Shown: positions 1,408 through 54,783 of the stretch, piece after piece
Numbering within the stretch: the first letter of the stretch is position 1
How the letters are laid out: each line of letters starts with the position of its first letter
From: Adineta ricciae
Lineage: Eukaryota > Rotifera > Eurotatoria > Adinetida > Adinetidae
Direction of reading: 5' to 3'
Length of the DNA stretch: 64,000 bases
Assembly: GCA_905250025.1 (NCBI GenBank)
Contig: CAJNOJ010000221.1
Coordinates: 97,022 to 161,021 of the forward strand
Notes under the pieces: model-generated
Told to the model about the DNA's origin: nothing
Databases searched by the model: none
What the model saw: the letters and a program-made list of their open reading frames with translations, nothing else
Position numbers and translations under genes: made by a program

Positions 1408-3186
1408 ATGTTTTGGTCTCTTTTAAGTTTATTATTGTTATTTTCCATTGGCCAATCAATTCCCATTATTAAAATAAATCATTCTATACTAATCGGTATG
1501 ACAAATCGAACGATATTCAATACAACACAAAATAAATGTATTTGTGAAATGTTGACATCGAATGGACTGATATCCGCAATAAATTATTTTTCAATCAATC
1601 AAACTTGCCAACTATTCACTTCGAATAATACTTCGATTGTTGTGGATTTTTCTTCAATTTCATCGTTGATATTTATTAATAGAACAGAAATATTAATAAC
1701 AAAATATAGTAAGTTCAATGAATGATTCAGTTGTATAAGAACGTATGATCGGTCGATCAAGTTGATTCATGTATTGTAGTTTATAGCATTCAGTTAATTG
1801 TCGTAGACAGTTAAAAATTGAGATGATTTCCTCTATTGACATGCGCATTGTAAATGACAAATATGTGATTTACTCGATATAATATTCATGATTTAAATTT
1901 TGACAGTTCGGTTTTCACTTATAATAACACAGAAGAAATCCTTATTACAATGCTCTAGAAATCAATTCCTTCACTTTCAAAACACTCCTTACAAGAAACG
2001 AAATTTTTGAACAGAATTCTCTTTATACATTTTTTAATAACTAGTGACAACTTCAACAACATCATCAACAACGTCAACTACAACAAGTGGTGAGTGATGC
2101 ATTACACAATATATCTACAGAAGACAAATTTGTATTTAATTCGTAGGATGCAGTCCAATGTTACTCAGTCAGACAATTTATTCAATTGGAAATGGAACAA
2201 ACTATGTGGCAATAGACGATATTAATGACGACATGAAATTAGATATTCTTACAGCCAATACAGTGTCAAATAATATGGGTGTGCTCCAAAATAAAGGAAA
2301 TGGTACATTTTATTCCCCAACACTTTATACAGTAGGTACTCGACCATATGCAGTAGCTACTGGTGACCTTAATAACGATAATAAGTCTGATGTTGCTGTT
2401 ACAAATAATGGGGTAGCTACTATTGGTATTCTTATAAATAAAGGCAATGGCACCTTTTATCCTCAATATACTTTATCAACTTATGGTTCTCCAAATCCAC
2501 TTGTTATAATTGATATTAATAATGATAATCTATCTGATATTCTTTATGCGTCCTGGTATACGGCTACTGTTAATATTTTCTTCAATAAAGGTAATGCGAC
2601 ATTTTCTCCTCAAACTAGTTACACAGTTGGTACTAATCCATTCGTAATTCAAGTCATTGATATTAATAATGATCATTTATTAGACATTCTCGTAGCAAAT
2701 CAAGGTTCAAACAGTATCAGTATTCTTATCAATGGAGGAAATGGTAGTTTTCTTCCTCAAACGATTCTTTCAGTCGGTAGTGGTATCGTTCCACGTGCAT
2801 TCGTAGCTGGTGATCTAAATGGTGACAACATTTCTGATATTACTACAGCTAACGCGGATTCAAACACCGTCAGCGTTTTCATTAATCGTGGCAATGGCAC
2901 GTTTTTCAATCAAATTAGCTATAGCGTTCTTGGTAAACCATTTGCAATACAAATACATGATATGAATTTCGATAACAAACCTGATGTCATTGTTGCTAAT
3001 TATGTTTCTAACAATATTGGTATTCTCATAAATCAAGGTGATGGTACGTTTTTGAATCAAACGACTTTTTCGGTTGGAATTAATCCGTCATCATTGGTCA
3101 TCGTTGATATCAATGAAGATAATAAGCCGGATGTGATTGTTACAAATTCTGGTTCAAATAATGTTGGTATACTCTTGCATTGTTAA
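1408..3186 (+). CDS. Secreted FG-GAP/VCBS repeat beta-propeller protein (block A copy)
   Basis: Three exons joined by GT-AG sites with matching phase: 1408-1708, 2045-2089 and 2147-3186, giving 461 residues. Exon 1 starts with a hydrophobic signal peptide (MFWSLLSLLLLFSIGQS) and a short Asn-glycosylation-rich region. Exon 2 is a 45-nt microexon coding only Thr and Ser after its first codon, a flexible linker. Exon 3 carries about seven units of roughly 48 residues with the calcium-binding pattern DxNxDxxxD (for example DLNNDNKSD), alternating with GNGTF-type turns; this is the FG-GAP/VCBS family, which folds as a seven-bladed propeller in integrin-like extracellular proteins. No catalytic domain is visible, so a secreted or surface binding role is inferred. 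The copy at 14727-16451 has the same structure. Confidence 0.85.
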
Positions 3187-3633
3187 TTTGTTTTGAACTA
3201 TGAAACTTATTTCCTTTTAATCTGCATTTCTTTGCTTATGTTATTACATTCTTCACAAATGTATTTTGATAATTTTCGTTCATACAATGGGAGAGAGGAT
3301 GGATGACGGCGAGAATGATCGCTGATGCCCTCATTCAGTATGTTGATATTATTCTCATACAGGTATACAAAACTGTATTCATTAAAGAAAAGCTTTCTCT
3401 TTCCTTTTATTGATTTGAGAGACATTTACGTTTTATCTTTTTTTCTTTTGAGAAGAGAAATGCATCGTACGATGACGCATTGTATGACCATTACTATTTT
3501 TAATGCTTTTTATTTCTTTTCTTTCTTATCGCTTGAATAAAGATACTTCGTCCGTCGAACACATTATAGTCAATTGTAATTTTCAATCGAAGATACCAAA
3601 TAAAACTTTTCATCTTGATCGTCCAAAGTGAAA
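3187..3633. other. Intergenic, no gene seen
   Basis: Spacer between the FG-GAP gene and the hydrolase gene on the same strand. It corresponds to 16452-16895 in block A'. Short open frames here are not preserved as protein between the copies. Confidence 0.5.
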
Positions 3634-4782
3634 ATGTCTAATCTTTTGCCTCTGGACTCTCAAACACTACCTGCTGGTGTAAAATCTCGTTTCATTGATA
3701 ACGTCAATGGTTTACGTATGCATATTCTCGAAGCTGGAGATGATCACAATCGTCCGTTAGTTATCCTTCTACACGGTTTCCCAGAATTAGCTTATACGTG
3801 GCGAAAAGTGCTAATACCTTTGGCCAACCAAGGTTATCATGTAATAGCACCGGATCAACGTGGATGCGGGCGCACTATTACCATTGACAGAAACAGCGAC
3901 GATGATTTTACCTCGTTCAGTATGTTGAACTCTTGTCAGGACATTATTACACTTCTCCATCGACTGAACATATCTAAAGTGAAGTCAATTATCGGTCGTG
4001 ATCTTGGTGCACCTATTGCGGCAAATTTAGCATTGATAAGACCAGACATTTTCGAATCGTTGATCATGACGTCGGCACCGTACCTAGGACCACCTTCAAT
4101 AGATACCCCTTCGAAAGCACCAGTTATCGAAGCGCTCAAACAGTTAGGAAAGAAACATTATCGATGGTACTTTTCTTCTGTAGAACAGGCCAACTTAGAT
4201 ATGCTCAATGCTGAACAAGGTCTCAAAGAATTCTTTCGTGGTTATTTGTACTTGAAAGGAGCTCAACATCCACAGAACAAGAATATCTTTCAATTAAAAG
4301 AATTGACAGCTGTCGAGTTGTGTAAACTGCCCGAATACTACATTATGCCGCTGGACCGTACAATGCCGCAGATAGTTCTCTCTAACATACCTGATACCGC
4401 CATACTCCAACAAGAAATGTCATCATGGTTAACCGAAGATGAACTTCAGGTATACACAGATGAATACCAGCGGAGTTCATTCAAAGGTGGGCTCCAGTAC
4501 TACAAGTGTTTTGCCAGTGATTATGATCAGAATCAACTGAAAGTTTTCAGTGGGATGAAAATCAAATGTCCTGCTATGTTCATTTCCGGTGCAAACGATT
4601 GGGGTATGCAGCTAGAACCGGATTTTATGAAGAAAATGGGTGCAAAGACTGTTTATGAAGATTGGAGAGGATTTCAGCTGATAGATAATTCAGGACATTG
4701 GCTGTCGGAAGAACAACCGGAGGAACTAACGAAGACAATTTTAAGATTTTTGGACATGCTTCCAATCAAAGAGTTACTCTGA
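3634..4782 (+). CDS. Epoxide hydrolase-like alpha/beta hydrolase (block A copy)
   Basis: Single exon of 382 residues. The ATG at 3634 is chosen; the frame is open one codon further, to a GTG that is not a plausible eukaryotic start. The oxyanion-hole motif HGFPE lies at residues 47-51. The nucleophile elbow is GRDLGA with Asp123, where classical epoxide hydrolases usually read GHDWG, so the Asp is kept but the neighbouring His and Trp are replaced. The likely acid is Asp322 (GANDWG) and the base His355 (NSGHW). A cap region between about 175 and 300 contains Tyr pairs (HYRWYF, LQYYKC) that could supply the epoxide-polarising tyrosines. No signal peptide is seen, so a cytosolic enzyme is inferred. 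Haloalkane dehalogenase-type or ester hydrolysis cannot be excluded. Confidence 0.8.
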   Translation: MSNLLPLDSQTLPAGVKSRFIDNVNGLRMHILEAGDDHNRPLVILLHGFPELAYTWRKVLIPLANQGYHVIAPDQRGCGRTITIDRNSDDDFTSFSMLNSCQDIITLLHRLNISKVKSIIGRDLGAPIAANLALIRPDIFESLIMTSAPYLGPPSIDTPSKAPVIEALKQLGKKHYRWYFSSVEQANLDMLNAEQGLKEFFRGYLYLKGAQHPQNKNIFQLKELTAVELCKLPEYYIMPLDRTMPQIVLSNIPDTAILQQEMSSWLTEDELQVYTDEYQRSSFKGGLQYYKCFASDYDQNQLKVFSGMKIKCPAMFISGANDWGMQLEPDFMKKMGAKTVYEDWRGFQLIDNSGHWLSEEQPEELTKTILRFLDMLPIKELL

Positions 4783-5378
4783 CGTCCTTGATCTATTTTT
4801 CATTTAAACTGATCTTTTTCAAATATCTAAGAAGAATATTGAATGTTGTAACGTAGTAAGGTGAAAGAGCACTTCAAGATCACCGACTTTCATGAATAAA
4901 ACGATTCATATGAGTATTCATTATTGATGAAATACGTATATGACCCTAATGACTTACCTGAATAGAGATCCCATTCGGCAAAAGATATTGTGAACATAAA
5001 TGCTCATTCAAATGTGTGCTGGTTCAACAAGTGCTGTCAACCTTTGTGAAAATATCTATGCCTTATATGTAATGAGACGAGTTTATTGTTAATTAAGAAA
5101 ATTTATACAAAGTAAACACAATAACCTTAAGTTTATTTTAGTGCAAAGTAATTTGAAACGCGACAGATTAGTGAGCGAGATTTCTCCTAGTGAAAATAAG
5201 ATGTCAACAAAGTATACTAAAGATCGGAATATCCCGGTGGGATTAAAAATCAAAATCAGATTTCGTTGTTAATTGAATTTTTCAGCATAAAAATCCGCTT
5301 ATCATCTGAATTTATATAGATGAATAAAAAATAACGGTCACTTGTTTCATTTCTATTCTCGCTGTCAACATTACTTCG
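4783..5378. other. Intergenic, no gene seen
   Basis: Spacer between the hydrolase and the GPCR, alignable with 18045-18576. The region from about 4919 to 5010 is partly missing in the second copy, so it is drifting. No RNA gene recognised. Confidence 0.5.
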
Positions 5379-6124
5379 ATGGAAAAATTAGAACTCGCAA
5401 CATATTGGATCAATCAGATCTATCCCGTTCTTCAAATTTTCTTTGGTACATTCGGAAATCTACTCAACATAATCATATTCACTCGTCGTGATTTACATCA
5501 AAATCCATGTTCGTTATATTTCCTCATTGGTTCGATCAATAATTGTGTCGTAATCGATTTTGGTTTATTGACACGTTATCTTGCAAGTACGTGGAATTGG
5601 GATCCATCTTTAACAAGTAATGTTTATTGTAAAATACGTAATCTTTTGGTTTATGCTTCTTTGACCCTTTCTTTATGGTTTATTGTTCTTGCAAGTGTCG
5701 ATAGGTATCTTTTGAGTTCACCAATCGTACGATTTCGTCGGTTGAGCAACCTGTCTATGGCACGAAAGCTGATTCTAATCGTGACTTTATCCATATTTTT
5801 CAGTTATTTGCATGTTCCAATATATTTTCAATCAACTTTGACTCCAAATGGGATGAACTGTAACTTTTCTCCGTATCAATATGTTTTATTCTTGAGTTTT
5901 TTTGCTCCGATTATATCTTGCGTGTTACCGATACTGTTGATGGGTATTTTTGGTATTTTAATGATTCAAAACATTCGTTACAGTCAGAGACGAACTCAAC
6001 GTTTACGTTCAGACGATCGTCAATTAAGTTTGATGCTTTTATTTCAAATTTTAATAACAACAGTCATTTCCACACCGTACTTTGCCCTTGCTTTATACAA
6101 TGCCATTGCAATTCTTATGCTTCG
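5379..6124 (+). CDS. Rhodopsin-like GPCR, 3' end lost at assembly gap
   Basis: The ATG at 5379 is the start shared with the copy at 18577. The readable part is about 248 residues, covering TM1 to about TM6: GNLLN in TM1, the TM3 cysteine at Cys84, and a DRY motif at 108-110 (SVDRYLL). The frame runs into N at 6125, after which an unrelated minus-strand aldehyde dehydrogenase begins, so the missing C-terminus is an assembly break and not a mutation. The last 221 bp (5904-6124) are identical to 19102-19322 and 19324-19544. Family placement is class A-like from TM pattern only; the ligand cannot be guessed. Confidence 0.8.
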
Positions 6125-6125
6125 N
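5904..6125. repeat. 221-mer contig end plus single N
   Basis: 5904-6124 is an exact 221-bp match to 19102-19322 and 19324-19544. The preceding base is t here and c at 19101, so identity begins exactly at the 221-mer. N at 6125 marks a scaffold join to an unrelated contig. Confidence 0.9.
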
Positions 6126-6577
6126 TATATCTCCAATACTATAATGAACTGGCTTTCCATTGTTAAGCGTTTCTAATTTCTATAATAAAATTCATTATTT
6201 CACCAAGGCAAAAGAGAAGATATTCTCACTGATAGATAATCGATGTCACGTCGAAGTAGATTGGCGAATTTGCGCATCAGATCTCCACGTGCAGCAGGTT
6301 CCATCGTACGCCATGGTGAATTGCTTTGAAAAGCTTTGCGAGCGGCTTCTACGGCTTTTTCTACATCTTCCTAAAACAAATTTCCAAATAAATAAGCATA
6401 AAAGAAGATTTTCCATCAGACCCGAGTGCCTTCTTCAACATCAGCAATCACTTCGCATGTGCTTGGATTGATCACTTGAAACGTTTTACCTTTTGTTGCT
6501 TTGTGCCATCCGTTATTAATAAAAATTTCAGTGTATTTTACTTCGACTTGCTGCGTTTTGCTATCGGAAGAGAGCAT
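6126..6577 (-). CDS. Aldehyde dehydrogenase (ALDH1-like), N-terminal exons only
   Basis: Three minus-strand exons with matching phase: 6422-6577 (52 codons), 6230-6370 (47 codons) and 6126-6179 (18 codons, cut by the N at 6125). The encoded 117 residues follow the start of class 1/2 aldehyde dehydrogenases: KYTEIFINNGW and NPSTCEVIADVEEG, then EDVEKAVEAARKAF with SPWRTM, then LETLNNGKP. The family oxidises aldehydes with NAD(P)+; the Rossmann motif, catalytic Cys and Glu lie in the missing part. The ATG at 6577 is preferred over an upstream TTG. Nothing in the surviving part suggests a pseudogene; truncation is due to the contig end. Confidence 0.85.
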
Positions 6578-7525
6578 TTGAAATCGGGCAATTTTTTGTA
6601 AAAAACACAACTATTCTCAAGTATAGGTAAATCGGTTCACTTCCTTTTTATATATGAATATAAACGAAAAACAATGTTTCGCCTCAATGCACATTTCCTA
6701 TCACGAATAAAGATTGTCAATTCATAACAAGTAAAAAGTAAGATAGATATGTCATGCGTAAATATTTTCATATGTCTTACCTTGATGTCAAATGAATGCA
6801 AAAATGATGAGAAGGATTTTGATGATTTGCCTTCGATTTAATTACGAAAAATTCTTTGATTAACAAAACATTTCATCGATGGTTAGTGAGAGAACACGTC
6901 ATGAAAACAAACAAAATTTGTTACTTCGCAGAATGAAGGGTGAAGGTGATACATATATACGTTGGGATTCAAAGAAAAACGCAATCGAAAGAGAGAACTC
7001 TATTGATGACGTGAGACAATGTAAGCACGGTTCTTTTAAGGTCGTCAAACTCATCTTAGGTAAATAAATCGAAGTGTGTGTGGTAGTCGTACACACCCTT
7101 TCTTTTCCGCTTTTTTTCTCTTGCTCCACATGAAAGCATGGGGGAAGAATTCTATCTCGTGAAGAGAACCAATGGTTAAGTGATAACGGATGACCGATTC
7201 CAAAATAAAATGTCAACTGATTTACTTAACCTAATCTTTTTTCCGCTCGTTATGCATGTTTATCATCGATCTCTACAAGGACTTTCTCTTTTCAATCAAA
7301 TATTTTTACAGAAACATAGTTCTTGTAGTCGAAAGCTATTTAAGGTGTGGGCATGAATGAGGATGATGATAATTCATAGTCTCTACAAATTTATTAAGCA
7401 TTTTTATAAATAGACAACTACTCCGAAGGCAAGATTAACAGGAAGTATTGAAAAAAACGAACATCACTCAAAATAATTTACAAGAAAGTTCTGCAGATAC
7501 AGCTATATATTCATAGTTAATCATC
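6578..7525. other. Intergenic between divergent-tail genes, no gene seen
   Basis: About 950 bp between the 5' end of the aldehyde dehydrogenase and the 3' end of the MACPF gene, both on the minus strand. Open frames here (for example 6879-7067) lack recognisable motifs. It probably holds the aldehyde dehydrogenase promoter. Confidence 0.45.
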
Positions 7526-10500
7526 TTATAGTGTCGGAGATGCAGCTGTTGTATTGACAAGCGGAGGATAAGATGGACATACACATGCGCATTGATTGGC
7601 AAAACTGCTAATCAATTCACATTTGACACAGATATGCACGGATTGAGTTAACATTGCTGGTGTACTAATTGACGAACAACCAATATGTACACGTGGTCCG
7701 TCGAGAGTTGTTTCTGAAAAGACAAGTAAAGATGACACTACTAGTGATTGCGATCATTAAAATACTCACGTGCGTTGATTCGAAGACGTGCACGTACAAA
7801 ACCTGTCTCTGAATCTCGGAAATACTCCAATGGTCGACTTTCCATGACATCTATTGTTGAATTGATTGATATTGGCGTCGAACATCCATTGATACATTTA
7901 GGGACTGATTCCAGCGTTATTGGACCTGAAATAGAACATGTGCCGTCATTCAATAGTCCAATATAGGCCTTCTTTGCCTCCAGATTTTGATTAAGAAGGT
8001 TTTTGTTTAATGTGGCTTCGTCACGCGCACGAGCTAAATCGGCTTCTCTCGTTTGACGTTGAATAATTCGACGAAGATTTCCTTTCACAGCGTCATTAAG
8101 TGTCGCTACTTCGTACCATGGTGTGTAGGATTCGATTTTGAGTAATGCAGGGTTAGCAATGATGCTTTCACGCCAGAGTGTATAATTGCTCAAAGTTACA
8201 TCGCCACCGAGTAGATGGTCCACTTTAACCTGACGTCGATTCGCGTAAAAATCATTCCCGAGGGTTTGACGGAGAATGTCCTGTTTGAGATATTCGGCCA
8301 GATTTGCTGAAGTGATGGCATTATTGAATGAGAAGACGCAGTCTTTGAACAACACGTGTTGCTCATGCATTCCACCTAAAATCAGAATACATTATGTAGA
8401 GAATCAAATGTTTTCGCTGCGTACCAACTAACGACTGCTGAACAATGTGAGTTCCCCACTCGCTACAATATCGAGAAGAAAATTCTGCAACTTTCATACG
8501 AGAAAATGATGACAACTCTACCGAAGAAAGTCTGAATATAACGACTCGTTGTAAGTTGGAGTAAGAGCATCAGTTGCTGCACGTGCTTCATCATTCAATT
8601 GGAAATTTTCGACACGCATTCGGTACAAAACAGTCGGATGCTGAGTGATGGCGACTGATTCGTCAGATGAAAAGTACTTTTTGTATATGTTTAACAAAGA
8701 TTGAGAATGACCAAATTCACCACCTAGCCAGTCGCCCTGTAATCGATCGTAACGCCATCTGTTCGATAGCTCCGTCGCAGTAAGAAAAACATGAGCCACA
8801 GGAACCGAGTCGTTATCAACAGTCAATGGGAAGCTCACTTCTTTGGGTACAAAATACTGACGATTTGTGAACGAGTCTGTCCAGAATGTAATATTTGAAT
8901 ATGTATATTTCAGAGCTGGACGCAAAATGTCGCCGGTTATTATGTCGAAAGTCATGCCAACACCAAGGAAAAGCTATACGGGGCAAATAGTAAGGACATA
9001 TAATTACCGACGAGACATACCTTATTGTATCCAATATCTGTTGCATTGGTCGTCTGTCTGCGTTGAAGACAGAGTTTCCCTTTATATCCCACGTAGTCAC
9101 ATAGTGTCTCTTCTGTTTCCTCGATGGTGCGATCTGCATTTTGGTGAACAGTAGCGCCGCCTCTTGTGTTATTTATTGCGTTTCGACTGCATTTTGTTGG
9201 AGGTAACGGGTCACGATCTGCCTCAAGTTTATTGATGTATGTACGATCTTCTTCCACAGCGGTTTTTAAATAAAATTGGATTGCTTCATTGAGTGCTGTA
9301 CGTTTATTGCCTTCGGGCAATAGTTTATCGAGTGTGACCAATTGATATGAGATCGGTCGCGGATTGAATTTGATCGTGGATTGCCATTCTTTCCATTTTG
9401 TCGGGTCAACCGATTCCGTTCCACCAAGAATTTGAGAAGAAAATATGGAGAATTGTTTAAATTTTTCATCTATCTCAAGCATATGGTCTTGCGAGCTTGA
9501 ATGAGTGCTGAATGCAACGAAACTACGTGACACTTGTTCGTCAATCCAAGTCTCAGTATGTTCGTAAGTTAAACATTGTTCGTACCATGTTTCAGCCCAT
9601 ACAAGACCACCCATGTTCGAAGATTCAACCAAATGTGTACCATACGACGCAAAGAACTGTTCCCAGACATTGGTCTGATTTTCATTGAACACCGAGGGTA
9701 GTTGATCGATCGCACGTTGAGCAAGCGGCGTAAGTCGAGGGTAAGGAAACGTATTAGTTGAGAGTTTATACCAACCAATTTGTATCAAGCGTAATACCAG
9801 ACTGTAATAATCATGATAAAATCGTCGATAGAAGTCGGTGACTGTTGTTTCTGTATGCTTTCGGCCTATGCCAAGAACCCCACCACTACTGCTTGACGTT
9901 GTCGTGGTTGTCAAACGAAAATAGTCTTGGACTGATGTGACTAATACACTTACGTCAAGAAGAAGTTTTTCTGGAGTATTAGTAGCAAAAAAGCCATTTG
10001 GTAGAGAATAGGCGATAGTATCATTGTAAGGATCAAACCAAAGCTCTCCTTCACTTGTATTTGTTTGGTCCAAAACGCATAGTTTGCTTTCAAGCAAGAG
10101 GACGTCAAATCCACAGCCGACAACGTCAAGACCAGCTAGAGGACCAAGTGGTTTGCGATCAGAAGAAGACAGACGAACAACCGCTGCTCTTGACTGGATC
10201 TGGGCCAGAGTAGGCAATTTACCATTGGTAATATAATAATCGATAGTTGTACGAAGATGTGTTTGAACTGCTTTGCTAGAGATAATGAGCTCAGCAAGGT
10301 GGGTCAGAGTTCGGTTCACCACCACCGGATGCTGTCCAGCCTCTAGTAGCCAAGTACTACAAAATACGCAAATAAGAAGAGGCCTTCACATCGATTTTCA
10401 AGCTATTCGTGACTGGTGAGTCGTTCTGTTCGGATAGTGCTCAATATTCATTCAAGTTAATGAGGTTATGAATTAAAAGTAGTATTCCTATCATAACTCA

Positions 10501-11547
10501 CTTCCACTCCGTTTGATTGTCTTCATTGTTGACATTAACAGGTGGATGATATTCTAATATTACACTTGTGCTCGTTTTGAAAGTTTCGGTAATTTTTTGA
10601 AATACCTCTGCACTCTCGATGCTGCCTTGTCCCTGATATTTTTTATATTCAAACATTAGACCAATCTGTTGCGATGTTTCTTCAGTATTTGCGGTGGAAT
10701 AATAGCTTGAATTGATAAACGAGTAGACGTATGCAGTTCCACCCATGATCACTTTCGAAACGTAATGAGTACCATACGATTCCACAAACTGATTATATAA
10801 TCGTTGTTGATCTTCAGTAGTGGGTGGTGATGCTTGTTGGAGAAGTATATTGATGCTTGCATTGAACATTTGATCAACTCTAGAGCGAAATTCATTTCAT
10901 TAGGATAAAGCACGGAAAGATCACGCGATGAAATTCAGAAAATTCGGTTCTGACAAAACAAAAAACATTCTCAATAGATTGTGTGATGATGCTTACTTGA
11001 GTTGAAACGAAGGCGCCAATTGCATTGAATAAAGACCCCACCATAATGTTGACGTGCCGACCGCCTGATTATGTTTTGTAATCGCTTCTTGAGCCCTTTT
11101 TAATGTTTCACTGTACTGAACAGCGAGACCAGCATATCCAGCCACAGAGATACCCCCTTGAAAAGAATTCGAGCGGAAATGACTAAAAAATGGAATATAC
11201 AAATTACATGAAGATATGACAATGAAAAATATTTACCTTTCATAAAATTTTTCGAATGAATATGATATATCTTCACAGCCCACTTCGCGACGAAGACTGA
11301 TGTCAGTTACTTGAGCAAGCAGTGGTGTGGAAAATGTTTGCTTTTGACCGTCAACATCAAGCGTAAAATTAACTCCGGATTGTTCACTTAAGTCCAAAAT
11401 TCGAAACTTTGATTGTTGATCGGAACCTGATACCATCTTGGCCGCGTCAAACCCAGACATAAGTTCATCCAGACCTGGTAGACGATTCGTAATTGCTACA
11501 TTTAATCGAGCAAAAATTAATAACCAATAAAAATAGAAGTGCATCAT
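7526..11547 (-). CDS. Secreted protein with three tandem MACPF domains
   Basis: Eight minus-strand exons join without phase conflict: 11237-11547, 10997-11182, 10502-10879, 9021-10356, 8522-8973, 8425-8462, 7770-8375, 7526-7713, giving 1164 residues. The N-terminus is a signal peptide (MMHFYFYWLLIFARLNVA). Each of three regions carries the MACPF/perforin signature, an aromatic-GTH block followed by a Gly-Gly turn: YGTHYV near residue 201, YGTHLV near 531 and WGTHIV near 890. Domain entrances resemble the family start (LPGLDELMSGFD, LAGLDVVGCGFD, LFLGVGMTFD). The tail is Cys-rich (CVKCELI, CACVCP). MACPF proteins oligomerise and form membrane pores in immunity, attack or development; whether this one does is unknown. 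Single-domain members are the rule, so a triple arrangement is unusual. The 38-nt exon 6 carries the third signature. The assumption of one transcript rests on splice phase and domain continuity. Confidence 0.8.
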
Positions 11548-11560
11548 CTAGAATAATGAA
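11535..11560 (-). promoter_or_regulatory. Splice acceptor abutting MACPF start codon, possible trans-splice site
   Basis: Read on the minus strand, a T-rich stretch ends in TTATTCTAG directly before ATGATG at 11547. The upstream same-strand gene stops only 63 bp away at 11611. Spliced-leader trans-splicing is known in bdelloid rotifers, so this may be the acceptor for a downstream cistron. An ordinary 5'-UTR intron or cis-splicing from the upstream gene would look similar. Confidence 0.4.
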
Positions 11561-11610
11561 GAAGTAAATAAAAGCTATCTAAAAAACAGTGTTAAGCAAA
11601 ACATTCAGTG

Positions 11611-12159
11611 TCATTGTGAAACGCACGCATAGCTCGAGTAAGGTGCTTCTAAATCACATGCTCGTCCGAAAATGGCAAGACTAGTATAATAACAAAACGA
11701 CTTGTTACCAGTGGCCACCATTCTGCCATTCAAAACCGATGTACAGCCTGTTAGATGAATTAGACGGGTCTGAATGCCAACAACGTGCGTTTCATTAATG
11801 TAGCGGCCGATGAATGTGTTAGCTACAGTAGGTGTGTCACTTGTCCAATAAACATCGTAGTCCTTTTGATAAACATGGCGATATTCTGTATTAGCTGTAA
11901 TAGTGTAAGTTCCAGTAAGATCATAAATATAGCTCCACTCCGCTGGACTATCTTGACAGGTTGCATTGCTAGGAGAATAGTATTGCTTTGCAGATGGACA
12001 ATACTGAAGCATATTGATTCCATTGATGCATCGGTAAAACGATCGATAGTCATCTCGGTTGACATAAGTTCCATTCACCTGAGGACAAGTGAAAACCGCG
12101 ACTGAATTTGTGATCAAATTGAGCGAAATGAAAGCAATAATACCAATGAGTTGTAACAT
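11611..12159 (-). CDS. Secreted protein with N-terminal chitin-binding (peritrophin-A-like) module
   Basis: Single exon of 182 residues, starting at the ATG at 12159 (the open frame extends to a GTG that is rejected). A signal peptide (MLQLIGIIAFISLNLITNS) is followed by a six-cysteine-type region with the aromatic/Cys pattern of CBM14 peritrophin-A modules: FTCPQVNGTY, FYRCINGINMLQYCPS, YYSPSNATCQDS. The C-terminal part (about 80-182) has four further cysteines and N-glycosylation sites but no family I recognise. It is 63 bp upstream of the MACPF gene on the same strand, suggesting co-expression; chitin or glycan targeting next to a pore-former is a plausible but unproven pairing. Confidence 0.65.
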   Translation of the reverse strand: MLQLIGIIAFISLNLITNSVAVFTCPQVNGTYVNRDDYRSFYRCINGINMLQYCPSAKQYYSPSNATCQDSPAEWSYIYDLTGTYTITANTEYRHVYQKDYDVYWTSDTPTVANTFIGRYINETHVVGIQTRLIHLTGCTSVLNGRMVATGNKSFCYYTSLAIFGRACDLEAPYSSYACVSQ

Positions 12160-14726
12160 CGTTTGATTCCACACAGTAAACTGATCATAGACTTTTGGCA
12201 CATTCAGCTTTATATACTCACTACCTCGCCTTATTTTTCGTTTACTAATTGATTGTTATCTGATAATAATGTTTGGCATCTATGTGGTTATTGAGTTTAT
12301 TTCGGTATGACAGATAGAAGATAAGTATTGCTAAATATGTTCAAGTATCATCTATTGCGTTTGTCAAACTCGTTTGACAGTGAGATATAAATTGCGTATG
12401 TTACACATCTTTCGGAGAAAAGCGATAAGATGATTAATGTTTTACTTTCTGCACTCTGAAGTACGTCTTAAGCCGTTATCAATATCCAAAATACAATACA
12501 AATATTTATGCATTCAGTTCGAATGGTACGCAAAACGCCTGGAAAATAATACATAAAACAAATCGAACTGTCAAGAATGAAAAAAGAACTTAAAATCGTC
12601 ATTTGATTTGAGAGCATAGGGTTCGTAGCAATAATTTTTCGGAATATTGAAAATATAGGATTTGATTTTCATACATAGGAATAGGGCATATTACGCTGTC
12701 CATCGTATAACGTGCCAACTACGGTCTAATGAAAATTACAAAGAATAAGTCTTTAGTATTAAAATAATATTAGCTTCTAACTGATTAACCGTCTCAAAGC
12801 TTCATTTTACCATAAAATTACTTTTAAAAAAACTCAGAGATTTCGTTCAGACAACTGTCATCTTAATTATTCTTAAATGAGTGTTGATTTTAAATTCTGC
12901 TTACATGAGCAGAGCAACGAATGCGACGTACATGATAAAAACATAATGTGTCACGTTTTCGTGTATAATCAATAGTTCTGATGTTTGGCTTGTCGGAACA
13001 GACTGAAACTTGCAACATAATTTCCGAACATAAAAGTAACATTCCGTATGATACAGATGAACTGAAAGACCAACGATGGCAATTAACACGACTTGCACTA
13101 TATGGTCACTTTATTTATTTGACGCTCAAAATTTTGTTCCATAAGATTTCGCCAAGTCAACAAATAGCCAAATACAATCAAAATAATAGCAGATAGTGTA
13201 CTAATACAAAGAGCAGTCTATAACTGAAAGTATTCAGTAAACACTCCGCTTGTAAATACGCTTATGTTGTAAACAGGTGAAATGTCAAAGTATAAAAATC
13301 ATGGTTTACTGTGCAGCCATGCAAAAAAAGTTACGATGATCTTAATTCGATGAAGCCCTTTCATTGTCATGCAATTAATTTCACATAAGAAAAAAGTTTT
13401 TAAGTCCAAACTGATGTTCAAGTTTATAGTATGTTAGAAAACAAATAATTAATAAATAACTAAAAACTAGCTCAAAACTTGAGTGAACAGATATACAAAT
13501 GAGTTTTCTCATCATCCGCCCTAATATTGATCAAATGCACAAATAAACAGTAGATACTGTATGTAAGTAACCATCAATTTACTTATCGTAGAACGAATAC
13601 GCATTGAAAATGGTGTTAAAATACCTAAAACAATGGAAATTAATTTTGATAAATCCACTGATGGGAAGAGCCTCTTCTTGCGTTAATTGTTTTTATGAAA
13701 AGCCTTTCTCACCATAGATCATCTACAATGAATGTTTTTTTAAGGTGAAACATTCACGTAACCAGAATAGCGAATGATATGATTACATATCGAGTGAAAT
13801 TGCATTGCAAATGAAAAGTAAACATTTGAAATATTCTCAAAATACATAAAGGATAAAATGTACTATTCAACTTCAAAGTATTAGTGCACTCGGCTATATA
13901 CGGGACACAATCTTTCTTTTATTACAATTCTTACATATAAATGTATATGAACTACAGAATCAGTGCAAATTTTTATTATGTTACTCATATCATAATATAT
14001 TTTTTATTTTTTGTCCTCGTTCTTTTCATCCACTTGAAGATAAAAGTATATTCAAATAGAATTCCCGTGTCACTCCATCTAGTTCAGTTTTTCTTTCGTG
14101 AACATCATTCGAGTTTTAAAAAACTGCTTCCTATTTTAGATCATCATTAGAAATCTCTCGAGTAGCAAGACTTTGTTTCACTCTCGTACTTTGCTTGAGA
14201 AATCTTTTCTACCAGAGTGACGAGGAGACTTCAATGATACCTACAAAGACGAAAGGGTAGACTCGATCCATCCTGATCAGTTAGTTTAAGAAAGCTTACC
14301 AGCGCAAGATTTTTTAGACTCAAATGTGGAACTCACACGCACGAACTCATTATTGTGAAATATAAAATACATATAACTGATTGTGTAACATTCATTCATA
14401 CTAAAATATTCAATGTATAGCCGTCTATGTACGTTAGAAACTATAAGAAGAAGTATTTATAATGCCGAGAATGTCTGTAATCAGAGGGGGAAATAATATA
14501 CGGAATGAGAATGTTGTAATAGATGAACATGAACGAATTTTGTTCCTCTAACGTTGCACGAGATTATTTTCTGAAAGAATAATGAAACACCTGCAAGAGA
14601 TGAAAAGGACACTTGAATGTGTTTTTTTTCTAAAATATAACCTGTTAAATTTCTCTTCATTTTTTATGAAATATAAAAGAAAATACTTTTCTGCAATTTT
14701 TTAACAAAGAAAAACTTCTATCAAAT
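12160..14726. other. Long intergenic stretch; right half is the block A' flank
   Basis: 12160-13480 shows no confident gene; a minus-strand hydrophobic frame around 12901-13250 is too weak to call. From about 13481 onward the sequence aligns with 1-1407. The alignment begins near GAGTTTTCTCATCATCCGCC-like sequence at 13501, and the roughly 170-bp segment at 240-405 is absent. No RNA gene or repeat array seen. Confidence 0.5.
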
Positions 14727-16451
14727 ATGTTTCGAGCTCTTTCAAGTTTATTGTTATTATGTTCCATTGGCCAATCAATTCCCATTATTAAAATAGGTCA
14801 TTCTATACTAATTGATATAACAAATCGAACGATATTCAATACAACACAAAGTAAATGTATTTGTGAAATGTTGACATTGAATGGATTAATATCCGCAATA
14901 AATTATTTTTCAATCAATCAAACTTGCCAACTATTCACTTCGAATAATACTTCGATTGTTGTGGATTTTTCTCCAATTTCATCGTTGATATTTATTAATA
15001 GAACAGAAATATTGATAACAAATTATAGTAAGTTCAGTGGATGATTCAGTTGTATAGGAACGTATGATTGATCGATCAAGTTGGTTCATGTATCGTAGTT
15101 TATAGCATTCAGTTAATTGTGGTAGGCAGTTCAAAATTGGGTCGATTTTCTCTATTGATAGGCGCATTTTAAATGACAAATATGTGATTTACTCGATATA
15201 ATATTCATAATCTATATTTTGACAGTTCGGTTTTCACGTATAAAGCGACACAGAAGAAACCCTTATTACGATGTTCTAGAAATGAATTCTTCCGTTTTTA
15301 ATAACTAGTGATAACTTCAACAACGTCATCGACGACGTCAACTACAACAAATGGTGAGTGATGCATTACACAATGTATCTATAGAAAGACAAATTTGTAT
15401 TTAATTCGTAGGATGCAGTTCAATGTTACTCAGTCAGACAATTTATTCAATTGGAAATGGAACAAACTATGTGGCAATAGACGATATTAATGGCGACATG
15501 AAATTAGATATTCTTACAGCCAATACAGGGTCAAATAATATGGGTGTGCTCCAAAATAAAGGAAATGGCACATTTTATCCCGCAACACTTTATACAGTAG
15601 GTACTCGACCATATGCAGTAGTTACTGGTGATCTTAATAACGATAATAAGTCTGATGTTGCTGTTACAAATAATGGGGTAGCTAATATTGGTATTCTTAT
15701 AAATAAAGGCGATGGTACTTTTTATCCTCAATATACTTTATCAACTTATGGTTCTCCAAATCCAATTGTTATAATTGACATTAATAATGACAATCTATCT
15801 GATATTCTTTATGCATCTTGGTATACGACTACCGTCAATATTTTCTTCAATAAAGGTAATGCGACATTTTCTCCTCAAACTAGTTACACAGTTGGTACTA
15901 ATCCATTCGTAATTCAAGTCATTGATATCAATAATGATCATTTATTAGACATTCTTGTAGCAAATCAAGGTTCAAACAGTATCAGTATTCTTATCAGTGG
16001 AGGAAATGGTAGTTTTCTTCCTCAAACGATTCTTTCAGTCGGTAGTGGTATCGTCCCACGTGCATTCGTAGCTGGTGATCTAAATGGTGACAATATTTCT
16101 GATATTATTACAGCTAACGCAGATTCAAACACCGTCAGCGTTTTCATTAATCGTGGCAATGGTACGTTTTTCAATCAAGTTAGCTATAGCGTTCGTGATA
16201 AACCATTTGCAATAAAAATATATGATATGAATTTCGATAACAAACCTGATGTCATTGTTGCTAATTATCTTTCTAACAATATTGGTATTCTTATAAATCA
16301 AGGTGATGGTACGCTTTTCAATCAAACGACTTTTGCAGTTGGAATTAATCCATCATCATTGGCCATCGTTGATATCAATGAAGATAATAAACCGGATGTG
16401 ATTGTTACAAATTATGGCTCGAATAATGTTGGTATACTCTTGCATTGTTAA
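14727..16451 (+). CDS. Secreted FG-GAP/VCBS repeat beta-propeller protein (block A' copy)
   Basis: Same three-exon structure as the gene at 1408: 14727-15027, 15309-15353 and 15412-16451, again 461 residues with signal peptide, Thr/Ser microexon linker and about seven DxNxDxxxD propeller blades. By eye about 20 of the last 342 residues differ from the other copy (for example V to G after TANT, and PFAIQIHDM to PFAIKIYDM), none in the calcium-binding acidic positions. The first intron is shorter (281 versus 336 bp). Both copies are intact, consistent with two functional alleles or very recent duplicates. Confidence 0.85.
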
Positions 16452-16895
16452 TTTGTTTTGAACTATGAAACTTCTTTTCTTTTACGCTGCATTTCTTTGC
16501 TTATATCATGACATGCTTCAGTGTATTTTGCTGGTTTTTGTTCGTACAATGGAAGAGAGGATAGATAACGGCGAGAATGATCGTTGATGCCCTCATCCAA
16601 TTTTTCGATATTATTTTCATACAGATATACAAAGCTGTATTCATTAAAGAAAAGCTTTCTCTTTCCTTTTATTTATTTGAGAGACATTTGCGTTTTATCT
16701 TTTTTGTTTTGAGAAGAGAAATGCACCGCGTACGATGATGCATTGTATGACCATTACTATTTTTTATGCTCTTTGTTTCTTTTCTTATCGCTTGAATGAA
16801 GATACTTCGACCGTCGAACACATATTATAGTCAACTGTAATTTTCAATCGAAGATACGAAATAAAAACTTTTCATCTTGATTGTCCAAAGTGAAA

Positions 16896-18044
16896 ATGTC
16901 TCATCTTTTGCCTCTGGACTCTCAAACACTACCTGCTGGTGTAAAATCTCGTTTCATTGATAACGTCAACGGTTTACGTATGCATATTCTCGAAGCTGGA
17001 AATGATCACAATCGTCCGTTAGTTATCCTTCTACACGGTTTCCCAGAATTAGCTTATACGTGGCGAAAAGTGCTAATACTTTTGGCCAACCAAGGTTATC
17101 ATGTAATAGCACCGGATCAACGTGGATGCGGGCGCACTATTACCATTGACAGAAACAGCGACGATGATTTTACCTCGTTCAGTATGTTGAACTCTTGTCA
17201 GGACATTGTTACACTTCTCCATCGGCTGAACATATCAAAAGTGAAGTCCGTTATCGGTCGTGATCTTGGTGCACCTATTGCGGCAAATTTAGCATTGATA
17301 AGACCAGACATTTTCGAATCGTTGATCATGACGTCGGCACCGTACCTCGGACCACCCTCAATAGATACCCCTTCGAAAGCACCAGTTATCGAAGCGCTCA
17401 AACAGTTAAGAAAGAAACATTATCGATGGTACTTTTCTTCTGTAGAACAGGCCAACTTAGATATGCTCAATGCTGAACAGGGTCTCAAAGAATTCTTTCG
17501 TGGTTATTTGTACTTCAAAGGAGCTCAACATCCACAGAACAAGAATATCTTTCAATTAAAAGAATTGACAGCTGTCGAGTTGTGCAAACTGCCCGAATAC
17601 TACGTTATGCCGCTCGACCGTACAATGCCGCAGATAGTTCTCTCTAACATACCTGATACCGCCACACTCCAACAAGAAATGTCATCATGGTTAACCGAAG
17701 ATGAACTTCAGGTATACACAGATGAATACCAGCGGAGTTCATTCAAAGGTGGGCTCCAGTACTACAAGTGTTTTGCCAGTGATTATGATCAGAATCAACT
17801 GAAAGTTTTCAGTGGGATGAAAATCAAATGTCCTGCTATGTTCATTTCCGGTGCAAACGATTGGGGCATGCAGCTAGAACCGGATTTTATGAAGAAAATG
17901 GGTGCGAAGACAGTTTATGAAGATTGGAGAGGATTTAAGCTGATAGATAATTCAGGGCATTGGCTGTCGGAAGAACAACCGGAGGAACTAACGAAGACGA
18001 TTTTGAGATTTTTGGACATGCTTCCAATCAAAGAGTCACTCTGA
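16896..18044 (+). CDS. Epoxide hydrolase-like alpha/beta hydrolase (block A' copy)
   Basis: Single exon, 382 residues from the ATG at 16896; an upstream in-frame TTG is rejected. It keeps HGFPE, GRDLGA with Asp123, GANDWG with Asp322 and NSGHW with His355. About a dozen residues differ from the copy at 3634 (for example Gly172 to Arg, Leu207 to Phe), none at catalytic positions, so both copies should be equally active or inactive. The non-canonical Arg-Asp-Leu around the nucleophile is shared, so it is not a sequencing error. Confidence 0.8.
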   Translation: MSHLLPLDSQTLPAGVKSRFIDNVNGLRMHILEAGNDHNRPLVILLHGFPELAYTWRKVLILLANQGYHVIAPDQRGCGRTITIDRNSDDDFTSFSMLNSCQDIVTLLHRLNISKVKSVIGRDLGAPIAANLALIRPDIFESLIMTSAPYLGPPSIDTPSKAPVIEALKQLRKKHYRWYFSSVEQANLDMLNAEQGLKEFFRGYLYFKGAQHPQNKNIFQLKELTAVELCKLPEYYVMPLDRTMPQIVLSNIPDTATLQQEMSSWLTEDELQVYTDEYQRSSFKGGLQYYKCFASDYDQNQLKVFSGMKIKCPAMFISGANDWGMQLEPDFMKKMGAKTVYEDWRGFKLIDNSGHWLSEEQPEELTKTILRFLDMLPIKESL

Positions 18045-18576
18045 CGTCCTTGATCTATTTTTCATTTAAACTGGCCTTTTTCTAATATCTAAGAAGAATA
18101 CTGAATGTTGTAAGGTAGTAAGGTGAAAGAGCACTTCAAGATCACCGATTTTCATTAAAAAAAAAAGATTCATATGAGTATTCATTGTTGGTGAAATAAA
18201 TGATAATTCAAGTGTGTGTTGGTTCAACAAGTGCTGTCAACCTTTGTAAAAATATCTATGCCTTATATGTAATGAGACGAGTTTATTGATAATTAAGAAA
18301 ATTTATACAAAGTAAATACAGTAAACTTAAGTTTATTTTAGTGCAAAGTAATTTGAAACGCGACAGATTAGTGAGCGAGATTTCTCCTAGTGAAAATAAG
18401 GTGTCAACAAAGTATATTAAAGATCAGAATATCCAGGCTGGATTAAAAATCAAAGTCAGATTTCGGTGTTAATTGAAATTTTCAGCTTAAAAATCCGCTT
18501 ATCATCTGAAATTATACAGATGAAAAAAGCATCAGTGACTTGTTTCATTTCTGTTCTCGGTGTCAACATTACTTCG
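18045..18576. other. Intergenic, no gene seen
   Basis: Counterpart of 4783-5378, shortened by deletions. The open frame upstream of the GPCR ATG at 18577 is not conserved in the other copy and is treated as 5' UTR. Confidence 0.5.
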
Positions 18577-19776
18577 ATGGAAAAATTAGAACTCGCAACA
18601 TATTGGATCAATCAGATCTATCCCGTTCTTCAAATTTTCTTCGGTACATTCGGAAATCTACTCAACATAATCATATTCACTCGTCGTGATTTACATCAAA
18701 ATCCATGTTCGTTATATTTCCTCATTGGTTCGATCAATAATTGTATCGTAATCGATTTTGGTTTATTGACACGTTATCTTGCAAGTACGTGGAATTGGGA
18801 TCCATCGTTAACAAGTAATGTTTATTGTAAAATACGTAATCTTTTGGTTTATGCTCCTTTGACCCTTTCTTTATGGTTTATTGTTCTTGCAAGTGTCGAT
18901 CGGTATCTTTTGAGTTCACCAATCGTACGATTTCGTCGATTGAGCAACTTGTCTATGGCACGAAAGCTGATTCTAATCGTGACTTTATCCATATTTTTGA
19001 GTTATTTGCATGTTCCGATATATTTTCAATTAGCTTTGACTCAAAATGGGATGAACTGTAACTTTTCTCCGTATCAATATGTTTTATTCTTGAGTTTTTT
19101 CGCTCCGATTATATCTTGCGTGTTACCGATACTGTTGATGGGTATTTTTGGTATTTTAATGATTCAAAACATTCGTTACAGTCAGAGACGAACTCAACGT
19201 TTACGTTCAGACGATCGTCAATTAAGTTTGATGCTTTTATTTCAAATTTTAATAACAACAGTCATTTCCACACCGTACTTTGCCCTTGCTTTATACAATG
19301 CCATTGCAATTCTTATGCTTCGNGCTCCGATTATATCTTGCGTGTTACCGATACTGTTGATGGGTATTTTTGGTATTTTAATGATTCAAAACATTCGTTA
19401 CAGTCAGAGACGAACTCAACGTTTACGTTCAGACGATCGTCAATTAAGTTTGATGCTTTTATTTCAAATTTTAATAACAACAGTCATTTCCACACCGTAC
19501 TTTGCCCTTGCTTTATACAATGCCATTGCAATTCTTATGCTTCGATCGCAATTCTCGCCTATTGGACTGTCTGTTTATAACTTTTCTTATAATCTTTTCC
19601 GATTACTTTACTTCACGAATCCTGTTCTCAGTTTCTATATTTACACAACCACAGGAGCAAAATTTCGTCAAGAGCTCAAACGGTGTTTCCAGTATGGCTT
19701 GAACAACTGTGTACCGCTTACAATTCAACGAAGATTGTTCAATACAAATGGGACTAATGGCATCGTCCCTATCTGA
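18577..19776 (+). CDS. Rhodopsin-like GPCR with artefactual internal 221-bp repeat
   Basis: Read literally, the frame from the ATG at 18577 codes 399 residues with one unknown at the N (19323). 19102-19322 is repeated exactly as 19324-19544; with the N this adds 222 bp, 74 codons, so the frame stays open and TM5-TM6 appear twice. Without the repeat the receptor is 325 residues, a normal size. Features: GNLLN in TM1, Cys84, DRY at 108-110, QRRTQRLRSDD in intracellular loop 3, and NPVLSFYIY as the TM7 NPxxY-like motif, then a short Arg-rich tail. No intron. It is the complete version of the gene cut off at 6125. Confidence 0.85.
   Translation: MEKLELATYWINQIYPVLQIFFGTFGNLLNIIIFTRRDLHQNPCSLYFLIGSINNCIVIDFGLLTRYLASTWNWDPSLTSNVYCKIRNLLVYAPLTLSLWFIVLASVDRYLLSSPIVRFRRLSNLSMARKLILIVTLSIFLSYLHVPIYFQLALTQNGMNCNFSPYQYVLFLSFFAPIISCVLPILLMGIFGILMIQNIRYSQRRTQRLRSDDRQLSLMLLFQILITTVISTPYFALALYNAIAILMLXAPIISCVLPILLMGIFGILMIQNIRYSQRRTQRLRSDDRQLSLMLLFQILITTVISTPYFALALYNAIAILMLRSQFSPIGLSVYNFSYNLFRLLYFTNPVLSFYIYTTTGAKFRQELKRCFQYGLNNCVPLTIQRRLFNTNGTNGIVPI
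19102..19544. repeat. Exact 221-bp direct repeat around single N
   Basis: 19102-19322 equals 19324-19544, separated only by N at 19323. The same 221-mer ends contig 1 at 6124. This is an unmerged contig overlap and not a biological repeat. Confidence 0.9.
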
Positions 19777-20110
19777 CACGAAACAAAGATTAGACCAGAA
19801 AAACAAAGAATGCAAGCTATGGTTTGTTCCTTATGGAAGAAGTTTTTGTTCAATTGAATAAACTTTGACTATGAGATAATGCATTTCATCATTTCGCTTA
19901 AAATGAGGACAACTTTCTCGTTTTACCAAACGATTCCTTATATTTGTTTTTCTTCCCTATCATACAAAGATACATACGTATTATGCCACTCATTCATTAG
20001 TACAGAATAAATATGCACACATGTTTTTTTCTTCCTCCATCTTTGTAATACAATACCGAAGGTTACACACATCGACATATCATTCAGTATTGACACACGA
20101 AGAGAAAAAC
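19777..20110. other. Intergenic, start of the tryparedoxin duplicate
   Basis: 3' flank of the GPCR followed by sequence resembling 24770-25063, the 5' flank of the intact tryparedoxin gene. The duplication therefore includes upstream sequence. Confidence 0.55.
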
Positions 20111-20621
20111 ATGGCTGGTGTAGCTAAACTATTCGATGGTCATATTCTCGATAAATCCAACAGAAATGTCGATCTCAATCATGAGAAATATCAAGGAAAA
20201 GCCATCGGTCTTTACTTCAGTGCTCATTGGTAATTTTTGCATAGCTAAATCCATTCGTCTTTCTTATTTTCCACTATAGGTGTCCACCGTGTCGTGGTTT
20301 CACTCCGATTCTGGTCGATTTCTATAACAAATATGGTTCAGAAAAGAACTTAGAGATTATCTTCATAAGCTCCGATAACGACGAAGAATCATTCAATGAA
20401 TATTATCAAGAAATGCCCTGGTTAACATTGGATTTCAAAGAACGCGAGATTTCAAGTTGATGGAATTCCAACATTGATTTTACTCGATGGAAATAGTGGA
20501 AATATTCTTCGTAAAGATGTAAGACAAGAAATTCAATTCAATGATAAACGAGGTGATCGATTTCCTTGGACAAGCTCATCAGAGACAACAAAAAAATCTT
20601 CTTGGTCGTGTATTTGCTGTT
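20111..20621 (+). pseudogene. Tryparedoxin/nucleoredoxin-like copy broken by a 23-bp deletion
   Basis: Exon 1 is 20111-20229 and exon 2 starts at 20280, as in the intact gene at 25064. The WCPPC redox motif is kept across the intron. After LDFKERE, 23 bp present in the other copy are missing; the frame shifts to ISS and stops at 20458-20460, giving 99 residues against 161. The lost part includes the cis-Pro strand (GIPTLILLD) needed for a thioredoxin fold. Downstream sequence still aligns with the intact copy to about 20621, so the loss is recent. A truncated product is conceivable but unlikely to be active. Confidence 0.8.
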
Positions 20622-21655
20622 AATTTCGTATATTCGACGTGTTTTCAAATATAATCTTGAGCGTCACACTTTCCTCCGTACATGCTGTTTCAAAGCCGGT
20701 TGCAGATAATGTGATAGCTTTTTGTATGAAGAAACTTCTGAAAATAACATCACATTTGAGCAAATTGAACATTTGTTTTCAAGTCGAATTCATTGGAAAG
20801 ATAATCTTACTCTAAAAAAACTGTAGAGTCATTATACTTTAAACATTTTGATTTGACAACTTCAAAGTGACTGCTTGCGTAACTAAAACCAAAATCCACC
20901 ACCATTTTTTTCAACTTTTCGTAAAATAGTTCGTAGTTCCACGATCACCGTTGTTCGCATACAAAAAATGTTCATTATAAGACTCGCGAATTTACGATCT
21001 GCAGGCGAAGGACTCAAGAGATAATCATATTTTCAATGAATAAAATGTATTTGAGAAAATTGAAAATTATAATTCCCTTAATTGTTTGCTTGATAAGCTG
21101 ATTGGTTATTATCTAAGCTGTAATAAATTACCTCACTTTGGACTCCAACACTCTCAGCTATACACTCAAGCTGTTTCTGATTCATCATCGCATCTGAATA
21201 TAATATAAGATTGCTTTCGCAAGGATTTTCCATCCTAGGTCAAACAAACTCTTTCTGAAGATTTGAATATCCTATGAGAACAATGAATCTATGATTTCAA
21301 CGTGAACATTGCCTAATGAATTCATAATCAACAGAGTAAAGTAAAACTTCAAAAAAGACGCCTTGCCATATGAAACAACAAACGTATGGTAAATGCATAA
21401 TAACACCCTCGGTATATACAGGTGAAAAATGAAAGTTAATTATCGGTATCACTTATACAGTCGTTTGAAAAAAATATTCTTCTGTTTCTTCATTTTTCTG
21501 TATAAAAAATAATGACAAGTCAAACAAAGATAATTATCGTAACAACAGATGAAGATCTTATTCACCAACTCTAAGTTTCTCCTTGTTTCTAAGAAGTGCT
21601 TTTTCTCTGTAAAGAATTCTGCCTCGTGAACACGTTTCCAAACGATCCATTAATA
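20622..21655. other. Intergenic, no gene seen
   Basis: About 1 kb with no recognisable coding exon on either strand. A short frame beginning near 21512 ends after about 20 codons and precedes the nuclear receptor remnant; it could be a decayed first exon. Confidence 0.4.
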
Positions 21656-22536
21656 ACATTGAACAAAAGCAAATCGAAACTGTTAAACGAGGAAAGAAAG
21701 TAATAGATCGGATTTGTATTATTTGTGGTGATCAAGCTATTGGATTTAATTATGGTGTTCTTTCGATTTGATTTTGTTAGTTTATTGTTGATTTTGATTA
21801 GAAAGCATTCAAATGTCTTTTCAATGGAGATCAATGTGTCATTGATTATCGAATAAGTCGAAAATGTTATCGATGTCGATTAAAACGATGTTTAAATATG
21901 GGAATGAAAAAAGAATTACTTCTAAGTCAAGAAGAAATCGAACAGCAGCGAACTCCAATATAGAATTAACTCGACCAATGTTCAAGGAAAATAAACTACA
22001 CTGAAACCNTTGATTTTGATTAGAAAGCATTCAAATGTCTTTTCAATGGAGATCAATGTGTCATTGATTATCGAATAAGTCGAAAATGTTATCGATGTCG
22101 ATTAAAACGATGTTTAAATATGGGAATGAAAAAAGAATTACTTCTAAGTCAAGAAGAAATCGAACAGCAGCGAACTCCAATATAGAATTAACTCGACCAA
22201 TGTTCAAGGAAAATAAACTACACTGAAACCTGTATATAGTGGATATCAGCGGGACTTTTCAAAGTGTTCCATTTGCAGAAGTGAAGTCTTCAATAAGGGA
22301 ATGCTTCGGCCACACAGTAAATGTGTTTTCCGGTCGTTCAATTTAATATTTTGAAGATTTTACATTGAATACAATACTCTTTCCTTATTTGGTATTTTAT
22401 CATGTTATAGAAGGAAATGACTAAACACGAATCGTCACTTAATGATCCGTTAGCTGCCTATCGAGCTCAATCATATTTTACAAAACGATTGTGGATTTAT
22501 TTGATGAGTAAACAAATAGAAACAGATATATCTTAG
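21656..22536 (+). pseudogene. Nuclear hormone receptor remnant, exon 2 doubled by assembly
   Basis: The plus strand encodes the first zinc finger of a nuclear receptor DNA-binding domain at about 21700-21769 (CIICGDQAIGFNYGVLS). After a short intron an exon at 21802 gives the second finger: CLFNGDQCVIDYR followed by CYRCRLKRCLNMGM. The segment that normally links the fingers (second Cys pair plus FFRR recognition helix) is reduced to KAF, so the domain cannot fold normally unless a microexon was missed. The exon ends at a stop (21961-21963). A separate frame near 22415-22533 (DPLAAYRAQSYFTKRLW) resembles a ligand-binding-domain helix. The exon is repeated at 22010-22230 because of the unmerged contig overlap at N 22009. 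Confidence 0.6.
21788..22230. repeat. Exact 221-bp direct repeat around single N
   Basis: 21788-22008 equals 22010-22230 with only N at 22009 between them. It is the same length as the repeat around 19323, pointing to a fixed overlap (k-mer length) in the assembler. Confidence 0.88.
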
Positions 22537-54782: not shown

Positions 54783-54783
54783 N

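Follow-up and report, generated by a model that had tools for sequence, protein, structure and literature searches.

Scaffold C221 (CAJNOJ010000221.1) of the Adineta ricciae assembly GCA_905250025.1 ends in the 64,000-base stretch analysed here, C221:97022-161021, whose right edge is the scaffold end at 161,021. This window contains the same 221-base sequence three times, together with what looks like a tandem duplication. The sequence makes it highly probable that both are a single false duplication made by scaffolding, in which contigs of two haplotypes, built with a 121-base graph word, were laid one after the other. The apparent tandem duplication itself is very probably not real. The source is most likely a heterozygous A. 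ricciae, sample ARIC003, for which a GC content of 35.5% has been published (PMC7943196); base counts give 34.5% for the window. Our conclusions cover scaffold C221 and contig C910.

The 221-base copies and the contigs that carry them

By exact comparison, positions 5904-6124, 19102-19322 and 19324-19544 agree letter for letter over 221 bases each, and the preceding base differs (T at 5903, C at 19101). No other plus-strand copy and no minus-strand copy occurs in the window. The window has four single Ns, at 6125, 19323, 22009 and 54783. Two of the copies stop exactly at 6125 and 19323, and the third begins directly after 19323, so that the preliminary description was correct in reporting three identical copies, different bases in front of them, and two contig ends plus one contig start. 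Suffixes and prefixes compared over each N overlap by 221 bases at 19323 and 22009 and by 0 at 6125 and 54783. A search of the 1033 contigs of the assembly of about 10 kb and more (130,461,839 bases), the set used for all genome-wide searches, gave four matches to the 221-mer, namely the three known copies and 60 bases at 80% on C292; no further full-length copy was listed. Among 3380 interior exact runs of homologous contigs, taken where alignments span at least 500 bases at 90% identity or more, 25 reach at least 100 bases and one exceeds 221 (319). Because long interior runs are rare and the 221-mers are bounded exactly by Ns, chance is not a reasonable explanation of the triple.

Features of the window, with the strand where there is one:
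1-6124, plus: right end of contig A (c13 = C221:81549-103145 in the contig map), putatively one haplotype; holds an FG-GAP protein, an alpha/beta hydrolase and a truncated seven-transmembrane (7TM) gene
5904-6024, plus: first copy of the 121-base merge vertex K1, the probable native end of A; the same in A, A′ and c15, with A and A′ differing one base before
6025-6124, plus: probable 100-base end extension of A into c15 sequence, the same as 19445-19544 (221 = 121 + 100)
6125: single N, false join from A to A′; 7TM gene cut on the A side, aldehyde dehydrogenase (ALDH) gene cut on the A′ side
6126-19322, plus: whole contig A′ (c14), putatively the other haplotype; homolog of C221:88446-103145, 5.3% different (genome search, self-comparison)
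18421-19776, plus: artefact open frame spanning the N at 19323, a 7TM receptor with a false in-frame duplication of 74 codons (222 bases)
19102-19322, plus: second 221-mer, by identity K1 (19102-19222) plus a probable extension (19223-19322)
19323: single N whose flanks overlap by exactly 221 bases (overlap test)
19324-21908, plus: native contig c15, 2585 bp, entered by A and A′ and left by D and D* (vertex search)
21788-21908, plus: branch vertex K2, 121 bases, also at 22010-22130 and C910:6416-6536
21909-22008, plus: probable 100-base extension of c15 along arm D, equal to 22131-22230; C910 departs at the first of these bases
22009: single N whose flanks overlap by exactly 221 bases (overlap test)
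22010-54782, plus: contig D (c16), one arm out of c15 (self-comparison); the other arm, D*, begins at C910:6416
54783: single N (N scan) ahead of the contig B′ of the putative other haplotype
54784-64000, plus: contig B′ (c17), homolog of 25989-35028, reaching the scaffold end; its first 121 bases are exactly 25989-26109

The duplicated stretch begins directly past the N at 6125. A and A′ differ at 5.3% of 13,101 aligned columns, with 1695 further gap columns, and their longest exact run is the terminal 221 bases. In the genome search, 6126-13480 matched C221:88446-97021, upstream of the window, in main pieces of 92-95% and two minor pieces, each roughly 100-120 bases long, at 91% and 83%. Matches on other contigs were at most 71%, and no third close copy of this stretch was found in the 1033 contigs; within 13481-19322 the 221-mer served as the query. 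The preliminary description took A and A′ for alternative versions of one locus, and both their divergence and their entry into the same 121-mer support this. It had set A′ at 13481-19322 and A at 1-6124, whereas A′ is the whole contig 6126-19322 and the second block is only the right end of C221:81549-103145; position 13481 looked like the start of A′ because the partner of A′ enters the window only there.

This divergence lies near that published for the homologs of A. ricciae, whose median divergence is 4.6% and whose mean Ks is 0.14 ± 0.036, compared with 1.27 for ohnologs (PMC5916493). Five gene pairs gave Ks values of 0.06, 0.06, 0.09, 0.10 and 0.15, with Ka/Ks of 0.21-0.34. Alleles assembled as paralogs are called heterotype false duplications, and gaps between the duplicates are one mark of them (Ko et al. 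2022, PMC9516828). A and A′ represent one locus twice, in diverged form, within a haploid assembly, and a single N separates A from A′ at 6125, as it does D from B′ at 54783.

Graph vertices, word length and contig order

The 121-mers K1 and K2 are each found three times in C221 and C910, on one strand: A, A′ and c15 contain K1, whereas K2 is shared by c15, D and C910. Contig 19324-22008 opens with K1, the 121-mer into which A and A′ both lead; this bears out the earlier suggestion of a de Bruijn-type merge of two arms. A second arm leaving K2 was predicted and found at C910:6416, right after a single N, where 121 bases are common with c15 and D and base 122 differs. Around c15 there is, then, a merge with two in-arms (A and A′) and a branch with two out-arms (D and C910:6416). 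The tract 19324-21908 has one sequence for both arms and flanks that are about 5% different; at a divergence of 5.2%, the chance of zero differences over 2585 bp is about 10^-60. It is a candidate gene-conversion or loss-of-heterozygosity tract, and c15 may be such a homozygous tract or a collapse.

The region beside c15 includes an array of aldo/keto reductase plus thioredoxin-like modules (19941-25670 and C910:1-16132), of which C910 holds further copies, more than 19941-25670 does. The copy number of the array may be higher in the second haplotype, and homologs may differ in it.

To find the word length we compared every contig end in the two sequences, C221 and C910, with each of them. Exactly 121 bases are common with a place in another contig at 8 of the 21 contig starts: c5, c8 (inverted), c10, c13, c16 (with C910), c17, C910:1 and C910:6416. 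A length of 121 is absent among the 3380 interior exact runs, and the 319-base run left its contigs unbroken. Starts c6 and c15 share 193 and 221 bases, and c5 and c16 additionally match the contig ends that they overlap, over 163 and 221 bases. Right-end matches of at least 100 bases measure 127, 160, 163 (twice, one inverted), 176 (inverted), 193 and 221 (three contigs). We read the graph word as 121, with native starts and with right ends lengthened by up to 100 bases, and 221 as 121 plus 100 bases of end extension. Such an extension is visible at K2: the C910 arm parts from c15 at the end of 121 shared bases, which puts the final 100 bases of c15 (21909-22008) on arm D already. The earlier estimate of k near 221 runs against both the exact-121 starts and the unbroken 319-base run. 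Platanus with k = 222 was set aside, as the exact-121 starts speak against it.

Nowell et al. (2021) report a final k of 121 for maxhap assemblies and SPAdes for single-individual samples, and name RaGOO, SSPACE and GapCloser for species other than A. ricciae; for ARIC003, about 200 animals of a single clone supplied the DNA, which then underwent whole-genome amplification (PMC7943196).

The preliminary description missed that the same interleaving spans most of the scaffold, including 25989-35028 against 54784-64000. C221 consists of 18 contigs and 17 single-N joins, and 115,499 of its 161,021 bases (71.7%) have a partner in another of its contigs, counting alignments of at least 150 bases and at least 84% identity, paralogous ones included. 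Self-comparison pairs c2 with c3, c4 and c5; c6 with c7, c8 and c9; c9 with c10, c11 and c12; and c12 with c13, c13 with c14 and c16 with c17, among others. All but one of the 40 inter-contig alignments are on the same strand, the exception being the inverted tail of c3. Stretches with no partner in another C221 contig include 35029-54783; for 35029-42000 no partner of about 94% was found elsewhere among the 1033 contigs, with the best 39 of 133 candidates scored.

Reference-guided scaffolding of the RaGOO type orders contigs by alignment start. The contigs of C221 are colinear and ordered in this way on one strand: on a common coordinate the later contig starts later in 19/19 counted pairs and ends later in only 11/18, and none of 200,000 random contig orders fitted start-sorting. 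A contig nested within another comes after it in the scaffold, as expected if sorting is by start and not by end. The 19 pairs are the 21 contig pairs minus c1-c2 and c1-c4, which were judged paralogous repeats (84-88% identity). For c15-c16 we used the exact end overlap (+2464) and not the longest alignment (-2243, an array copy at 88.6%), and this pair was also omitted from the end-order count.

These observations suggest how the triple could have arisen. The assembler would have built a de Bruijn graph of 121-base words from the short reads of a heterozygous animal. Where the homologs are identical, over 19324-21908 (2585 bp), the tract would be longer than read pairs bridge, and A and A′ would therefore end at K1 while arms D and D* would begin at K2. 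The contigs, from either haplotype alike, would later have been sorted by where they start on a common coordinate and then joined, and gap-closing would have pushed some contig ends up to 100 bases beyond the vertex and left one N. The product would read A-K1+100, N, A′-K1+100, N, K1 and onwards, with the 221-mer three times.

Competing explanations

One rival is a genuine duplication in direct tandem, or homologs that are physically linked, as reported for some bdelloid assemblies, with both copies carrying the 221-mer as a patch of identity. It would account for the direct order, the common strand and the 5.3% divergence, and two linked homologous blocks, both tandem, have been reported in A. 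ricciae (Nowell et al. 2018, PMC5916493). In that case the 121-mer that ends A should somewhere precede the sequence at 6126, but in C221 and C910 only c15 sequence follows it; K1 never runs on into the sequence of 6126 without an intervening N there, and we saw no sequence in the two that passes from copy 1 of the putative tandem into copy 2. In A and A′ the c15 sequence breaks off at an N 100 bases past the 121-mer, the copies meet at single Ns in a pattern that recurs along the scaffold with nested, start-sorted contigs, and no other close copy of 6126-13480 was found in the 1033 contigs. We therefore consider a true duplication very unlikely, and the argument of the preliminary description against one is supported, given that in C221 and C910 K1 continues only into c15 and the copies meet at Ns. 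It is more improbable still that the homologs are truly linked in direct tandem on a chromosome not divisible into two haploid sets, with the contig ends at vertices being merely short-read failure. We give equally little weight to the arms being recent paralogs or segmental duplicates falsely set in tandem by the scaffolder. In favour of this reading, the aldo/keto reductase-thioredoxin modules next to c15 occur in multiple copies, and the genome-wide partner searches within the window were confined to 6126-13480, 19324-22230 and 22010-42000. Where these searches lay outside the array, however, the close partner was in the same scaffold (89-95%, main pieces) and other contigs reached at most 84%, while divergence and Ks are of the published homolog order and far under that of ohnologs. 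The arms are probably alleles.

The same artefact with k (or k-1) of 221, the vertex being the whole 221-mer, would explain why the joins at 19323 and 22009 overlap by exactly 221 and why an interior exact run of 201 bases in A and A′ left the contigs unbroken. It does not fit the eight starts with exactly 121 shared bases, the C910 arm that departs from K2 after 121 bases, inside the 221-mer, or the 319-base run without a contig break, and we see little chance that it is correct.

Several observations weigh against false scaffolding of two haplotypes with a 121-base word. The fixed length is seen at starts only: exactly 121 occurs at 0 of 21 right ends, other starts share 65 (c9), 104 and 82 (c11) or 160 and 132 bases (c12), and end overlaps of 160, 163 and 193 would require extensions of 39, 42 and 72 that a fixed 100-base gap leaves unexplained. 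The start C910:14909, which follows the N at C910:14908, recurs over exactly 221 bases elsewhere within C910, and this also speaks for k = 221; under a 121-base word the start would have been extended to the left. At its left end, 6126, A′ has no exact match of at least 60 bases in C221 or C910, so this end does not lie at a shared vertex. C910 carries an array copy related at 92% to part of c15, so that a collapsed allele is not the sole reading of c15. Two alignments contradict the start order (c1-c2 and the longest of c15-c16) and are taken as paralogs, and four of the five Ks values lie under the published homolog mean. In the available text of PMC7943196, k = 121 is stated for maxhap assemblies only and the scaffolding of ARIC003 is not described.

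Genes, other repeats and comparison with known systems

Left of 6125 the 7TM receptor gene is cut (PF00001, profile positions 1-228 of 260) and its frame continues in c15; right of it the ALDH gene is cut after its first exons. One of two scanned ALDH frames at 6126 matches PF00171 (profile positions 29-72 of 461), and similar ALDH frames in A continue to about C221:86811, judged by eye. The frame over 19323 remains open because 221 + 1 = 222 = 74 codons, and it yields a false 451-residue receptor with a repeated segment. This false protein may be present in public databases. By Pfam, the window also encodes a MACPF-domain protein (8955-10385, minus strand) and an ADP-ribosyltransferase plus TPR protein (38020-39702, plus strand). 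No Rfam match at gathering scores was found in the window. A telomere-repeat pattern matched 38 times, but the reversed control is the same cyclic repeat, so the count is uninformative.

One pair of inverted repeats of at least 100 bases occurs in the window, and it lies at a contig end: an exact 163-bp pair (54249-54411 and 54620-54782) with a 208-base spacer, which ends at the N at 54783. Likewise, c3 ends in an exact 176-bp inverted copy (C221:28580-28755 against 27481-27656). These inverted contig tails could be chimeric tails of multiple-displacement amplification. Contig D contains a direct duplication (35046-35811 and 43011-43784; 90.7% over 774 columns) with an exact 227-base run (35293-35519 and 43266-43492). 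Two same-strand copies 17 kb apart on C436 (32116-33661 and 49151-50695) both match 34060-35696 at 79-80%, and C436 may be a second zipped scaffold with an ohnologous pair.

Linked homologs have been proposed as a sign of evolution without meiosis, and scaffolding errors have been suspected behind them (Nowell et al. 2018, PMC5916493). Scaffold C221 is not discussed in the available text of PMC5916493 or PMC7943196. It offers a caution wherever linked homologs in asexual animals are taken as evidence of ameiotic evolution, since its tandem arrangement over 161 kb is best explained as a joining artefact. Such an artefact also breeds false genes, here a 7TM receptor in which an in-frame segment is doubled and "paralog" pairs whose members are probably alleles. 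Testing contig starts for 121-base sharing needs no reads and could be extended to the whole public assembly. The one biological residue is the 2585-bp tract, apparently identical between homologs about 5% different, the kind of trace expected from gene conversion or loss of heterozygosity.

Overlapping contigs that are not merged leave repeated sequence on either side of a gap. C221 resembles this where 19102-19322/19324-19544 and 21788-22008/22010-22230 repeat over one N, but differs in that the first copy, 5904-6124, appears to come from the other haplotype. As in false heterotype duplication, both alleles would stand as paralogs in a haploid assembly, with gaps between them on the same scaffold; unlike the cases of Ko et al. 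(2022, PMC9516828), C221 is mostly interleaved contig by contig, and its exact word geometry marks the joins without reads. Like the linked homologous blocks of bdelloids (Flot et al. 2013, as described in PMC5916493), it has homologs on one scaffold, in tandem, with scaffold gaps nearby. The linked blocks of A. vaga were interpreted as biology (PMC5916493), whereas the contig-end geometry of C221 points to false joins.

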